Assembly: GCA_030590605.1 (NCBI GenBank)
Contig: JAUUYB010000019.1
Span: forward strand, 1 to 12,210
Length of the DNA stretch: 12,210 nucleotides
Origin: Candidatus Woesearchaeota archaeon
GTDB lineage: Archaea; Nanobdellota; Nanobdellia; Woesearchaeales; JAUUYB01
Direction: 5' to 3'
Shown here in pieces: positions 4,176 through 9,483 of the stretch. The notes under the pieces are model-generated. The model was not told the origin of the DNA. It worked only from the letters and a program-made list of their open reading frames with translations, and ran no database searches. Each line of letters opens with the position of its first letter. The stretch's first letter is position 1. Position numbers and translations under genes: made by a program.

Positions 4176-5060
4176 TTACCTTTTCCTGAACAATCCTTCT
4201 ATCAACAGGACGAGGATGAATCCTCCCAGAGCCGCTATTACGAGCGGAGGATAAGTAGTGTAGGCCTCAGCCATACGTATCACAGGCAGCCTTATCGATC
4301 CCAGCATCAATCCTGTCAAGAACGCGAGAGTGTGCGGTCTGAATCTCTTGAGGAGGAAATTGATTAGTCTTGAGAATATGATGATGCCGAATCCTGCTCC
4401 TACACCGAATGTGGCTATCCTCAGGAGGTCAAGATCATGGAGAATCCCTATCAGATATTCATACTGGCCCAGGAGGAGCAGGATGAATGCCCCGGAGATC
4501 CCAGGAAGGATCATCGCGCAGATCGCGATAGCTCCAGAGAAAAGGATCGCTGGATAAGAATGTCCAAGAAATGATCCCATGCTCAAGCCCGCGATGTAGA
4601 AAGCGAACCCGAAACCTGTGACTGTAGCAAGACCTGTCCAGGCATCTATCAGTTTCACTTTTGCGAAAAGGATTATCGCTGATGCCATTATCAGACCGAG
4701 GAAAAATGCGAAAGTGATCCCTGAATGGTCTGTCAGGAGGTAATCTATAACCCCTGAAAAGAAGAATATCGCGAGACCGATGCCCAACCCTAAAGGGACG
4801 AATAGCCAGAAATCAATCCGATTGAAATTGTTCTGCCATTTCCTTCCTTTGAAGAAATCGATGATGAAAGCAATGTTGAGATTGCTTATCGCCCTTATGA
4901 GCCGTTCATATATCCCTGTGATAAGCGCAATAGTGCCTCCAGAGACACCTGGAATCGTGTCTGCCAGCCCCATGAGGATGCCTCTAAGGAAGACGAGCAA
5001 AGATTCAATCGCTTTCTTCGTAATGTATTGTTTTTGTTTTTTCTTTAACATAGTCATCAT
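4176..5060 (-). CDS. DUF368 family membrane protein, probable polyprenyl-phosphate translocase
   Basis: 294 residues, strongly hydrophobic with about eight to nine membrane segments and a basic N terminus. The family signature ADTIPGVSGGTIALITGIYE occupies 33-52 and a second, related copy MILPGISGAFILLLLGQYE occupies 183-201, so the protein shows the internal inverted duplication expected of a transporter fold. Bacterial DUF368 proteins (PopT) have been shown to recycle undecaprenyl phosphate across the membrane; in an archaeon the natural substrate would be a dolichyl-type phosphate used for glycosylation, which is inference. The start overlaps the end of cca by 56 nt; an in-frame ATG at 5051 is an alternative and still overlaps. 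It is very likely co-transcribed with cca. Confidence 0.85.
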   Translation of the reverse strand: MMTMLKKKQKQYITKKAIESLLVFLRGILMGLADTIPGVSGGTIALITGIYERLIRAISNLNIAFIIDFFKGRKWQNNFNRIDFWLFVPLGLGIGLAIFFFSGVIDYLLTDHSGITFAFFLGLIMASAIILFAKVKLIDAWTGLATVTGFGFAFYIAGLSMGSFLGHSYPAILFSGAIAICAMILPGISGAFILLLLGQYEYLIGILHDLDLLRIATFGVGAGFGIIIFSRLINFLLKRFRPHTLAFLTGLMLGSIRLPVIRMAEAYTTYPPLVIAALGGFILVLLIEGLFRKR

Positions 5061-6249
5061 CGAGTATCTCTTTCAATAGCGCCAGAGCGGAGGGGTATTT
5101 CCTCTCGACTTTAGCATAGATCGTCTTGTCCTTGACATAGGTCTCTTTGTAGATCTTCTTGAAATCACTGACAAAATCTTTCATCTCAACAGGAGGGCCT
5201 TTCCATTCCTTGATCTTTGGAAGGGTATCCTCTTTGATCGTGAACCAGAAAAGCGCATCATTTTTCCTGTCCCAGAACCAGCCTTTATCTTTGATCGTGA
5301 AATCGTTATTTATCAGGCTCCTCTCTAAAAATCTGAAGCATTTGAGGAGCTTACTGCCCTCGATATCATCTTTTCCTTTGTCAGGAGCCGCAGTAATAAT
5401 ATGAAGATTCTTTTTCTTGAATTTTTCTTTTATAGACTGGATTGTCACAATTTTTGGTTCGAAGTATTTAGGACCAGGAGATTTCAGGAACTTTTTAGCT
5501 GATGAGATGAGAATCTTGAAATTTTCCACAGATAATGCAGCAGCGACATTTCTCCCTTTCTGGACAGGATCTATGAGGACAAGAGGGCTCTCGAGCTTGG
5601 ATTGATTGACCTCGATATCGATGTTATTGTGATATCCCATTATATCTATCACTTTTCTCTTCTTCCACTTGCTTATTGCTTCTAAGAATTTTTTGAATCC
5701 ACCATAATGCACTATGAGAATCTCGATGCAATATCCGGAGAACCCCTGGATGAATGATTCTGCCCCATATATCCCCTGACTCTTGGCGAATGCTTTTGCG
5801 AGCCTAACCTGGTCAGGATCAATCATATGTTTCTTGACCCATAAAGCGTGCAGAGGGCTTATGTCTGTTATGTTCACTGCCATACCTGAATCCTTGATGT
5901 CCAATATCGGGATGATCTCGAATACGAAATCGTCCTCGATGATCTGGAAATAATCTCTGCTACCATGGACCCTCAATATCTCTTTGAACTCTTTTTTTAT
6001 CGCTTTTTCCGTGATATCAGAAAGCTCATCGCTCCTGTCCTTGAACTTTTGGTAGTTGAACTTGACGAAGATGTCAGCGTCATAGGAATCCTTGAGCCAG
6101 GTATTCTTCTTTGCGCTCCCTCCTAATATGATTTTTGCGCTTGGGACATCGATGCGCTTCATGAAATCATCAATACGCAGCTTCTTCTCTCGCTCCTCCT
6201 TTTGTGTAGGTTTTATGAGCGATAAGGCTTCTTTTAGGATGTTTTCCAT
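5005..6249 (-). CDS. cca: CCA-adding enzyme (archaeal class I tRNA nucleotidyltransferase)
   Basis: 414 residues, close to the usual archaeal length. It adds or repairs the 3' CCA of tRNAs in the cytosol without a nucleic acid template. The nucleotidyltransferase core is clear: GGSAKKNTWLKDSYDADIFV (43-62) with carboxylates Asp57 and Asp59, and the third metal ligand in FVFEIIPI (Glu111). The central domain shows RLAKAFAKSQGIYGAESF (149-166) and GFSGYCIEILIVHYGGF (169-185), and IDPVQKGRNVAAALS (226-240) follows, all characteristic of the archaeal class. The third carboxylate is Glu where the Archaeoglobus enzyme has Asp, a conservative change. It is the first gene of a two-gene operon with the DUF368 transporter, with a TATA-like box 27 nt upstream. 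Confidence 0.95.
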   Translation of the reverse strand: MENILKEALSLIKPTQKEEREKKLRIDDFMKRIDVPSAKIILGGSAKKNTWLKDSYDADIFVKFNYQKFKDRSDELSDITEKAIKKEFKEILRVHGSRDYFQIIEDDFVFEIIPILDIKDSGMAVNITDISPLHALWVKKHMIDPDQVRLAKAFAKSQGIYGAESFIQGFSGYCIEILIVHYGGFKKFLEAISKWKKRKVIDIMGYHNNIDIEVNQSKLESPLVLIDPVQKGRNVAAALSVENFKILISSAKKFLKSPGPKYFEPKIVTIQSIKEKFKKKNLHIITAAPDKGKDDIEGSKLLKCFRFLERSLINNDFTIKDKGWFWDRKNDALFWFTIKEDTLPKIKEWKGPPVEMKDFVSDFKKIYKETYVKDKTIYAKVERKYPSALALLKEILDDDYVKEKTKTIHYEESD

Positions 6250-6282: not shown

Positions 6283-6366
6283 TTTTGGAATAGCCCAGGT
6301 TTTTGAAAGGATATATTTCTCGTTTAATCAATATGTGTGGATTCTTTTGAAAAAACTGTACGCTAC

Positions 6367-6517
6367 GCCACCACCACCATTGGCGGCAGACGGCCAATCG
6401 CTTCGCGATTGTCCTACTCGCCACAAAGAAACCCGTTGGGTTTCTTGTGCAGGAAATTGTTCCAATTTCCTTGCACTCCGTAGGAGCCTCGGCTCGACCT
6501 GCGCCAGTGGTGGTGGC
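6367..6517. repeat. nested multi-hairpin palindromic element (candidate mobile repeat or structured RNA)
   Basis: A 151-bp block sits between the divergent cca and transporter genes and is richer in G+C than its flanks. A perfect 11-bp outer stem, 6367-6377 (GCCACCACCAC) with 6507-6517, continues as TGGCGGCAG (6381-6389) against CTGCGCCA (6499-6506) with one bulged G. Inside lie: CAATCGC-TTC-GCGATTG (6395-6411); a long-range TCCTAC (6412-6417)/GTAGGA (6480-6485) pairing; a 12-bp stem with one bulged A and loop GTT (6422-6449); GGAAATTG-TTC-CAATTTCC (6452-6470) flanked by TGCA/TGCA; CTCC-GTA-GGAG (6476-6486); and GAGC-CTCG-GCTC (6484-6495). Nearly every base can pair. The rest of the 6250-6578 gap holds only the two divergent promoters. 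No coding potential is credible here. It may be a non-autonomous mobile element, a single-strand recombination substrate or an RNA; I recognise no named family. Confidence 0.7.
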
Positions 6518-6548
6518 TTGCTAAATCGAAAGTGGGGCAATCGAAATG

Positions 6549-6560
6549 CTTTTAATATTG
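6549..6560 (+). promoter_or_regulatory. TATA-like box for the VUT-family transporter
   Basis: CTTTTAATATTG is centred ~25 nt before the ATG at 6579, which supports 6579 as a leaderless start over the in-frame ATG at 6546 that lies upstream of this box. Confidence 0.5.
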
Positions 6561-6578
6561 GGTCTGTTCCGGATAATC

Positions 6579-7238
6579 ATGATTATCCTCTGGATATTGC
6601 TGACACTGGTCGTCGCCAGCCTCTCCGTAGTCATCGCGAAGAAGTATGGGCCTGAATACATCATAGGCATGTATGTCGCTATGGCAGTCATCGCGAACGT
6701 ACTCGCAGGAGCGAAGATTGTCAAGTTCTTCATGTGGTCAGTCGATGCAGGCACGATAGTCTATGGGGCGATGTTTCTCCTGACTGACATGCTCTCCGAG
6801 ATATATGGCAAGAAAGTGGCACGGAAGGCGGTGTTTGCCGGATTCTTAGGGAACGTGATGTTGGTCGTGTCAGTCTGGGTCGCACTCAGATGGGCAGGCG
6901 CGCCTGGATGGGAGAACCAGCAGATATTTGAGACCCTCTTCGGAAACACATGGAGGATAGTGCTCGCCTCTCTTACAGCATACCTCATAAGCCAGAATCT
7001 TGATATCAACCTTTATCAGAGATTCAAGAAGATGACAAGGGGCAGATATATGTTCTTCAGGAACAATGCGTCCACATGGATCAGCCAGGGTGTCGATACC
7101 GTAATCTTCACGACAATAGCATTCTATGGAGTATTTCCTATAATGGAGATGATCATCGGGATGTATATAGTCAAGGTAATCATAGCATCATTCGATACAC
7201 CATTTCTTTATGCCGCAAAATGGTACTATAAGAAATAA
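6579..7238 (+). CDS. yhhQ: queuosine/archaeosine precursor transporter, VUT (YhhQ) family
   Basis: 219 residues from the ATG at 6579; an in-frame ATG at 6546 would add 11 residues but lies before the likely TATA box. The protein has about six membrane segments. Family motifs are clear: GTIVYGAMFLLTDMLSEIYG (58-77) followed by KKVARKAVFAGF (78-89), and RNNASTWISQGVDTVIFTT (161-179), with the conserved TD..SE.YG and R...T..SQ..DT patterns. The Escherichia coli member imports the 7-deazaguanine precursors preQ0 and preQ1. In archaea these feed archaeosine at tRNA position 15, and possibly queuosine at position 34, so salvage of a tRNA base precursor is the likely role. The neighbouring divergent gene cca is also a tRNA maturation gene, though this may be coincidence. 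Confidence 0.88.
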   Translation: MIILWILLTLVVASLSVVIAKKYGPEYIIGMYVAMAVIANVLAGAKIVKFFMWSVDAGTIVYGAMFLLTDMLSEIYGKKVARKAVFAGFLGNVMLVVSVWVALRWAGAPGWENQQIFETLFGNTWRIVLASLTAYLISQNLDINLYQRFKKMTRGRYMFFRNNASTWISQGVDTVIFTTIAFYGVFPIMEMIIGMYIVKVIIASFDTPFLYAAKWYYKK

Positions 7239-7428: not shown

Positions 7429-9483
7429 CTAGTAGATTGCGGTGCTCTCGTGATCAGTCTTCTCTATCCGGATGATGTTCTCTACGAATGACTCGATCTT
7501 CGATTCGTGGCTCACTATTATGACCTGGCGGATTGCAATCAAGTCAAGCAGTTCTCTCATCCTGTCAAGCTGTTCAGTAGAGAATCCGTCAGTAGGTTCG
7601 TCCAGTATCAAAAGATCTTTTGTACGGATAGTATCGATGACATCATTGATCACCTTGTTCAGTGCGAGACGATAGGCTAAGGCGCACGCAGTACGTTCTC
7701 CGCCTGAAAGGCTCAATAGGTCTGTCTCATAACCGTTTTGCTCTGCGATCGGAACGAATTCCTCATTCAACCTGACCTGAAGGGTCTCGTCATCAATAAG
7801 GATATTGAACCATTGCGAGAAAAGATGGGCGAATTCCTGGTAGACTGCGGTCATCACAGTCCTTTCCATCGCAGTCATGAGGGATATGAACTCGTCATTC
7901 AGCCAGGAAAGTGTTTTTTTCGCTTTCATAAGATTGGATCTTGCCAATTCCTTCTCTTTGATGTCTTTTTCAATCGAACGGATGAGTTCAACTTTTCCCT
8001 GAGTCTCCTTCTCTATCATCGCGATCTCTTTGTCGACCCTATAGGCTTCCTGCATAGATCTTTCGAGTCGTGCTTTCGCAGCAGCATGGGTCTCCTTGAC
8101 ATCCCTGAACGACCCTATCTGAGTCTTTACGTCTATCTTCTGGCTGTTTATCTTGCCGATATCATCTTTCAATACTTCCACTTTCTTGATGAGGCTTTCT
8201 CTCCTCACTCTTTTTTCAGCCATGTTCTTCTCTTTTTGGATCAGGACCTTGACTTTTGTGAGGGTCTCCCTTTGTTCCTCTATCTCTTTATTGGTGGAGA
8301 TGGTCTCTTGTTTCAATTCAGTTATCCTTTTAGTGAGCGACTCTTTTTGCTTAGTCAGTCCGCTGATGTTCGATTCTTCTCTTTCCTTCACTTTCTCTTT
8401 ATGGATTGCGCTTACTGATTGCTCGCAAGTCGGGCAAGTATCGAGTTTTGTTATTCTGGTCTTTATATTTTCTGATTGAGTAGTCCGCTCATCTATGGTT
8501 GCTATCTTGTTCTGGACAACTGTCAGCTCTTTTCTAAGGCTTTCCAGGACTGATTCCTTTTTATCTATGAAGTTCTCGATAACAGTGGGCTCTTTTTTCT
8601 CTACAGATGTTTCATCCTTTAACTCTCCTGTAATCTTCCTCTCTTCAGCAAGCGCTTCGCTTCGCTGCAGTACCATCGCCTGGAGTTTTTGTTCCAATAC
8701 TGCAAATTCTTTCTCTAAACCAGTGCACACCTCGATCTTTTCCTCGATCACGATGACTTTTTTCTTAGCATCTGCTTCTTCCTGTCTTGCTTTTGCCAGG
8801 ATCGGGATCTGCGCTTCCTTACCATTATCCAGGGCAGAGATATCTTTCGTGATCCGTTCCTGTTCTGCATATTTCTCTGTGATGCCGTCAGCTTTCCCTT
8901 CATACCCTTTTATAGTTTCTTTTACTGCTCTTCCGACAATGGCGCTATTGTTCCTGATGACCTTGTATTTCTCTATGCCGAATACCTTACGGAGGATGTC
9001 GAGACGGGATTCGCTGTCATCAAGTATGATACCTTTCATCTCTTCCTGAGGGGTATAGACTGTATACCTATAGACCAAGTCCTTGCTCTTTGCCGCGAGA
9101 TCCCTGGAATATCCAAGGATATCCAGGATGTCAGACTTCAACTCTATAGCAGTGCCTTCTTTCTTCACTCCGTTCCTTATGATGTACCCGGAAGCCTGCT
9201 GGACTCCCTTGCTTCCCCGCTTAAGAGTCCTCTTGACAACAAATCTATCTTTATCGATAGAAAATCCTAGTTCCACCTCGCCCTCACTCTTGCCGCCTCT
9301 GAGCAAAGTGTCTCCGCTGAACTTTCCCCTCATGATACCGAAAAGTGCGAACTCAATCGCTAAAAGTATAGAAGACTTGCCGCTTCCGATGTCGCCTGAC
9401 AGAAGGATAGAACCTTCCCTAAACTTGATAGTAGATTCAGTATAACTCCTGATATTCCTGAGCTTGACGTAATCGATGATCAT
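7429..9483 (-). CDS. rad50: Rad50-like SMC-family DNA repair ATPase
   Basis: 684 residues. The ABC-type head is split across both ends: Walker A GDIGSGKSS (30-38), Q-loop YTPQEE (143-148, Gln146), signature LSGGE (592-596), Walker B LLILDEP (624-630), D-loop region and a switch His659. Between them lie two charged coiled-coil arms (~190-345 and ~360-525) joined by a zinc hook DTCPTCEQ (CPTC at 350-353), which defines Rad50 rather than SMC. Rad50 works with the nuclease Mre11 on double-strand breaks. At 684 residues it is shorter than typical archaeal Rad50 proteins (often 850 or more), because the coiled-coil arms are short. No mre11 is in the window. The start codon overlaps the stop of the isomerase gene (ATGA), so it is the second gene of that operon. 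A more divergent SbcC-like role is possible. Confidence 0.88.
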   Translation of the reverse strand: MIIDYVKLRNIRSYTESTIKFREGSILLSGDIGSGKSSILLAIEFALFGIMRGKFSGDTLLRGGKSEGEVELGFSIDKDRFVVKRTLKRGSKGVQQASGYIIRNGVKKEGTAIELKSDILDILGYSRDLAAKSKDLVYRYTVYTPQEEMKGIILDDSESRLDILRKVFGIEKYKVIRNNSAIVGRAVKETIKGYEGKADGITEKYAEQERITKDISALDNGKEAQIPILAKARQEEADAKKKVIVIEEKIEVCTGLEKEFAVLEQKLQAMVLQRSEALAEERKITGELKDETSVEKKEPTVIENFIDKKESVLESLRKELTVVQNKIATIDERTTQSENIKTRITKLDTCPTCEQSVSAIHKEKVKEREESNISGLTKQKESLTKRITELKQETISTNKEIEEQRETLTKVKVLIQKEKNMAEKRVRRESLIKKVEVLKDDIGKINSQKIDVKTQIGSFRDVKETHAAAKARLERSMQEAYRVDKEIAMIEKETQGKVELIRSIEKDIKEKELARSNLMKAKKTLSWLNDEFISLMTAMERTVMTAVYQEFAHLFSQWFNILIDDETLQVRLNEEFVPIAEQNGYETDLLSLSGGERTACALAYRLALNKVINDVIDTIRTKDLLILDEPTDGFSTEQLDRMRELLDLIAIRQVIIVSHESKIESFVENIIRIEKTDHESTAIY

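Follow-up and report, generated by a model that had tools for sequence, protein, structure and literature searches.

A nested-hairpin repeat of the Woesearchaeales, a probable DNA parasite that may be recognised through its folded shape

A block of nested hairpins lying between two divergent genes of a Candidatus Woesearchaeota archaeon proves to be the inner part of one copy of a repeat that is multi-copy in its genome, spread through the order Woesearchaeales, present at differing sites in related genomes and marked by near-pure Watson-Crick covariation. The reading that we favour, and hold to be rather probable as a whole, is that of a non-autonomous mobile Woesearchaeales repeat whose folded DNA would be read by a recombinase supplied in trans. 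Such a repeat has the look of parasitic DNA that is recognised through its shape.

The element in the window and its fold

The window, by which we mean the whole 12,210-nucleotide stretch of DNA that was analysed, carries the folded block at 6367-6517, between ORF 5005-6249 on the minus strand, a CCA-adding-enzyme gene, and ORF 6546-7238 on the plus strand, a Vut_1-family transporter gene. An earlier note on this DNA had described the block as folding almost completely within a perfect 11-bp outer stem (6367-6377 / 6507-6517). Both the coordinates and the stem check out, and the near-complete folding is borne out on either strand: 6367-6517 folds at -82.5 kcal/mol as plus-strand RNA (z -9.8) and at -79.1 kcal/mol as minus-strand RNA (z -7.1), with 0 of 200 dinucleotide shuffles as good in each case. 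The minimum-energy plus-strand fold of this block has the CCA/TGG outer stem in a slipped register; the exact 11-bp stem is present in folds of the longer interval 6359-6524, which reaches z -8.4 and -8.0 on the two strands under DNA parameters. No Rfam family was found in the window at the gathering score, and a search of 6300-6600 at E≤10 returned a single 17-base match (E 7.8). Elsewhere in the window, 7432-9483 holds an ORF of 684 aa whose AAA_23 and SMC_N-like matches make it Rad50/SMC-like, the ORFs at 1653-2999 (449 aa) and 777-1619 (281 aa) have no Pfam match at E≤1e-5, and the other genes are ordinary (FGase, VCA0040-like, bact-PGI_C, and LNT_N with CN_hydrolase).

The true extent of the element exceeds the 151-bp block. 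Model R1 matches 6359-6524 on the plus strand (C37:6359-6524, E 4.1e-19), a whole copy of 166 bp with the ends TACGCTAC ... TTGCTAA, whose outermost bases are also found in copies elsewhere. The left terminal motif (6359-6366) takes the form (TG)YACGCT in most own-genome copies, and the right terminal motif (6518-6524) reads TTGCTAA in this copy and TTACGCT in others. To compare the ends we took 25 copies from the own genome (a short derivative on C84 and 24 of the 28 model matches, with C53, C69, C100 and C162 omitted): ACGCT stands at positions 2-6 of the left end in 22 copies, a G precedes the element in 20, and the right end is TTACGCT in 14 and TTGCTAA-like in eight, the type to which the window copy belongs. 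The GCTA words that had been suggested as a target duplication were placed rightly, at 6362-6365 and 6520-6523, but one lies inside each of these end motifs, which recur in copies found elsewhere; around the 25 copies, too, the flanks hold no direct repeats beyond those of shuffled pairing (mean longest 4.84 versus 4.62; 29 of 200 shuffles as high). We rejected that suggestion.

Inside the ends, the outer stem arms (6367-6377 and 6507-6517) pair at a position that covaries in relatives. They enclose, by alignment to intact copies and to the consensus structure, the core stem P1, whose 5′ arm TGGCGGCAG (6381-6389, one G unpaired) pairs with the 3′ arm CTGCGCCA (6499-6506); the core hairpin P2, GGCCAATCGC-TTC-GCGATTGTCC (6392-6414); and P3, represented by a remnant of its 5′ arm (6417-6424) and by its tip and 3′ arm, CTCCGTAGGAG-CCTCGGCTCGA (6476-6497), between which pairing is now poor in the window copy. 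All of these features are read on the plus strand. The family consensus runs in the order long outer stem, P1 (TGGCGGCAG / CTGCGCCA), AC, P2, TA, and P3 with a C-G-C tip, and the family core is a three-way junction of P1, P2 and P3. In alignment A4 the commonest base has a mean frequency of 0.75 over the core, against 0.52 over the outer stem, and the unpaired bases are A (91%) and C (100%) at the P1-P2 junction and T (97%) and A (73%) at the P2-P3 junction. The outer stem sequence varies from copy to copy in the own genome; within each of G003 and G054 it is, by eye, nearly constant. Three-base P2 loops start with T in 35 of 44 cases (P2 was parsed in 76 of 117 elements).

The P3 tip (6476-6486 in the window) may form an intramolecular triplex, with two C-rich strands around a G-rich strand in parallel register, as judged from the way its bases change together. 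Among 98 of 117 elements parsed, about six evidently wrongly and some element types perhaps sharing origins, the C-strand/G-strand/C-strand types CCCC/GGGG/CCCCC (42), CTCC/GGAG/CCCTC (13) and TCCC/GGGA/CCCCT (8) follow this pattern. Off it are the 14 elements of type CCCC/GGGA/CCCCC and some ten cases met once or twice each, and GCCC/GGGC/CCCCA (4) changes in step, yet gives no standard triplet.

Copies, genomes and sites

BLASTN of the element against its own genome (G000; 1.13 Mb in 166 contigs, 84% complete) gave 26 matches, mostly to one half of it or the other, and model R1 found 28 places at E≤0.01, some of them partial. In an alignment of ten insert-free copies (A1), RNAalifold called 36 pairs, 22 of them with double-sided change. 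Matches to R1 occurred in 18 of 60 genomes, the own genome counted, and a broad model, R2, built from 107 R1 matches, reached, at E≤1e-4, 122 of 352 Woesearchaeales genomes from 90 of 220 genera; because about ten candidates were scored per genome, R2 gives minimum copy numbers and may have overlooked the element in some of the negative genomes. A sample of 371 genomes from the phylum contained 70 positives, all 70 in Woesearchaeales (the share of the 371 from outside the order is not stated), and the strict core pattern matched twice among GTDB species genomes, both times in Candidatus Woesearchaeota. Where the earlier note would have counted a single copy against its reading, the search of the own and related genomes shows one that is multi-copy and order-wide. 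Among viruses, neither the strict core pattern (in IMG/VR) nor the P3 pattern had any match, and a looser core pattern picked out 88 stretches, of which 80 were scanned and none was a model match at E≤0.1; no plasmid matched at E≤1e-5.

Of four elements queried, two proved to be missing from the corresponding site of a congener. At G116:C54:56034-56158 both flanks match the congener G117:C14, where 35 bases replace 203 and the core is absent; in the second case, G315 against its congener G316, 243 bases stand for 425 and the flanks match more poorly. Because the intergenic DNA has diverged, neither of these element-free sites can be defined to the base. We note that stretches beside the elements of G315 locus L234 (about 1662-1753 and 4636-4807) recur many times in G316 and apparently belong to another repeat family. 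The congeners G051 and G233 have two element loci in common (L146/L240 and L210/L215), at which the copies differ by whole hairpin blocks, and a third orthologous intergenic site (L151/L241) holds two different family members, being either a hotspot or a place of replacement. The earlier note's proposal of a non-autonomous MITE/REP-like mobile element is thus supported by the copy number, the spread over genomes and the absences in congeners, together with the compensatory changes described below.

Simple ORF calls around the 25 own-genome copies place 15 between tandem genes, six between divergent and three between convergent ones, with one unassigned. These gene orientations do not fit a terminator, a reading that we rejected. 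The count set aside ORFs overlapping the element, of which ten of the 25 copies have one of at least 70 aa, so that intergenic placement is no more than likely for any one copy; at two copies (L029 and L048) the overlapping ORF exceeds 200 aa. The most recurrent neighbour, a gene that we take from its sequence to be scpA-like, is found at four of 56 loci (L040, L070, L075 and L078, each from another genome) in varying position, and was rejected as a conserved neighbour. Adjacent plus and minus matches, resembling the inverted pairs of REPINs, occur in G047, G051 and G045, and none is present among the 28 own-genome matches.

The evidence from one relative would fit an ordinary DDE-type MITE, in which a transposase binds duplex terminal inverted repeats and the structured core is a passenger. 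In G030, terminal inverted repeats RGCTTCATCCAAAAAAT flank the core, and six of the seven places with both repeats have, by eye, 9-bp duplications. All six carry the core or its remnants, two of them with internal N runs; the loci with a core inside a repeat-bearing MITE are L068, L083, L179, L180, L191 and L201. The seventh place has neither core nor duplication, and the core is therefore dispensable there. The near-constant outer stems of G003 and G054 are likewise what a transposase-bound inverted repeat would give. Against this stand the own-genome copies, with flanks free of repeats beyond shuffling and outer stems that vary by copy, and the G030 repeat, searched for in G030 alone, was not noticed in the displayed copies of other genomes. 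No transposase of the G030 MITE was found. We consider this explanation unlikely for the family.

Covariation and the nature of the fold

In alignment A4, 93.1% of 3578 cells pair, compared with 65.7% after shuffling and 34-49% in slid versions, and double-sided changes occur at 36 of 36 pairs (913 such cells against 250 in shuffles), figures that are inflated because A4 was fitted to the same structure and contains many related copies. Compensatory changes, whose lack the earlier note would have counted against the element, are therefore abundant in homologues. Of 3331 standard pairs, 52 (1.6%) are G-T or T-G, a single pair of the P3 tip contributing 13 of these, and A-C or C-A occupies 60 cells, so that G-T is as rare as A-C. 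In a control of 18 distinct tRNA genes predicted in the retrieved DNA, G-T accounts for 29 of 383 pairs (7.6%) and A-C for none (Fisher p 1.3e-8 for the comparison with the element), the zero being in part a product of ARAGORN, which picks the pairs itself; more weight falls on the parity of G-T with A-C inside the element. In a fold maintained as RNA, G-U should be tolerated more readily than A-C. The element shows no such preference, and its substitutions point away from an RNA fold and towards one kept as DNA, either through selection or through template-switch copying.

Template switching, proposed as a process by which hairpins arise and are kept up (PMC8794818), could produce the DNA-level signature alone. 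The repeat would then be a hairpin relic, its covariation a product of template-switch repair of quasipalindromes with no need for the fold to be recognised, and this agrees both with changes that are almost Watson-Crick-only and with orthologous congener copies that differ by entire hairpin blocks. Template switching explains neither the conserved unpaired core bases (the A, C and T at 91, 100 and 97%) nor the spread of the element, and we regard the relic explanation as distinctly unlikely. The structured RNA among the earlier note's options, taken as a gene family or a cis-regulator (riboswitch, terminator or ncRNA) that is multi-copy by chance, draws on the strongly conserved three-way junction with its junction bases and on the mostly kept orientation of the P2 loop, but is made very unlikely by G-U pairs no commoner than A-C (52 versus 60), inconsistent gene orientations, a top neighbour recurring at so few loci, the lack of an Rfam family at the gathering score and the turnover of sites inside a genus.

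For the mobile repeat that we favour, the mechanism would be as follows. A recombinase supplied in trans would recognise the folded single-stranded or cruciform DNA, probably by its shape plus a few core bases, by analogy with REP and PATE models, and the hairpins may be renewed as blocks through exchange between copies or through template switching. The single-strand recombination substrate that had also been put forward is a possible description of the element. Stem letters that change while the fold stays would suit tests of the recognition of folded single-stranded DNA. More generally, covariation of the sort by which functional RNAs are called can also be displayed by DNA repeats, and counting G-T against A-C may be a simple way to separate folds kept as DNA from folds kept as RNA.

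Candidate enzymes and known repeats

We found no autonomous copy and no linked enzyme. Y1_Tnp matches at E≤0.001 occur in 125 of 352 Woesearchaeales genomes, in 67 of the 122 with the element and 58 of the 230 others (odds ratio 3.6, p 5e-8, uncorrected for kinship or genome size). The Y1 transposase co-occurs with the element in this way, but it is missing from 11 of the 28 genomes with at least ten element matches, the own genome among them, and none of 20 Y1 loci inspected holds an element, so that we rejected it as the sole mobiliser. The left-end pattern occurs at 20 places in the own genome and a reversed control pattern at five; three left-end places outside the 28 model matches are a coding-like one, a bare end and a truncated core (about 330 unannotated bases each).

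We rate the element as one of the PATE/REPIN/ERIC kind. That it stands for a new class of archaeal selfish DNA, a shape-recognised three-way-junction single-strand element with changeable stem letters that is moved by a recombinase, is a tentative and somewhat doubtful proposition. Of the open-licence PMC papers that our searches turned up, none, judged by title and opening of the abstract, describes this family, which is no proof of novelty, and none deals with small mobile repeats of DPANN archaea. Integron attC sites are recognised more by folded shape than by sequence, and the recognition proposed for the element would share that preference. ERIC, taken here to be RU-1, is not known to have a three-way-junction core with changing stem sequence. 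The enterobacterial RU-1 (127 bp) and RU-2 (168 bp), described in PMC2759123, resemble the element in size, intergenic position and MITE-like character and differ in their hosts. REPs and REPINs, moved by TnpA-REP (RAYT), are likewise intergenic hairpin repeats, with inverted pairs that the adjacent matches in some of the genomes here resemble; a GTAG-like word, read on the minus strand, stands at the foot of P2, and the REP model has mobilisation as a folded single strand, as we propose for the element (PMC3116915 and PMC8266576). In contrast, a REP measures about 20-60 bp and has a single palindromic core (PMC3116915, PMC8266576), and no Y1 (PF01797) match was found here in the own genome (84% complete) or in four high-copy relatives (G003, G045, G051 and G059).

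The PATEs and SMRs of Haloquadratum walsbyi offer an archaeal parallel (PMC3119063). Like PATEs as described there, the element is archaeal and non-coding with divergent copies, and in the own genome it is palindromic and has no target duplication. PATEs differ in having near-terminal palindromes and IS605-type-related ends (same source), whereas here a nested three-way junction spans the element; an IS605-type relative of the element was not found. SMR-A, an inverted-repeat element of about 110 bp, inserts into PATE palindromes (PMC3119063), and the module nested in the window copy seems similar.

This 52-bp twin-hairpin module (6425-6476, plus strand) consists of a CAC..GTG hairpin followed by a GTGC..GCAC-like one, and a CAC directly precedes it (6422-6424) as well as making up its last three bases (6474-6476). 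It was delimited by alignment of 14 copies, ten of which have no insert there or in the outer stem; C93 has another insert. A DNA search with the module found only C53 and C62, and the remaining look-alikes were recognised by eye. Modules of like fold and differing sequence are present on C53 (L015), C62 (L010), C69 (L274) and C140 (L016), the last in a degenerate element unmatched by the model. The module sits on the 5′ side of the outer stem in C53 and C62 and in P3 in C69, and it may represent another mobile family, one with hairpins as its targets.
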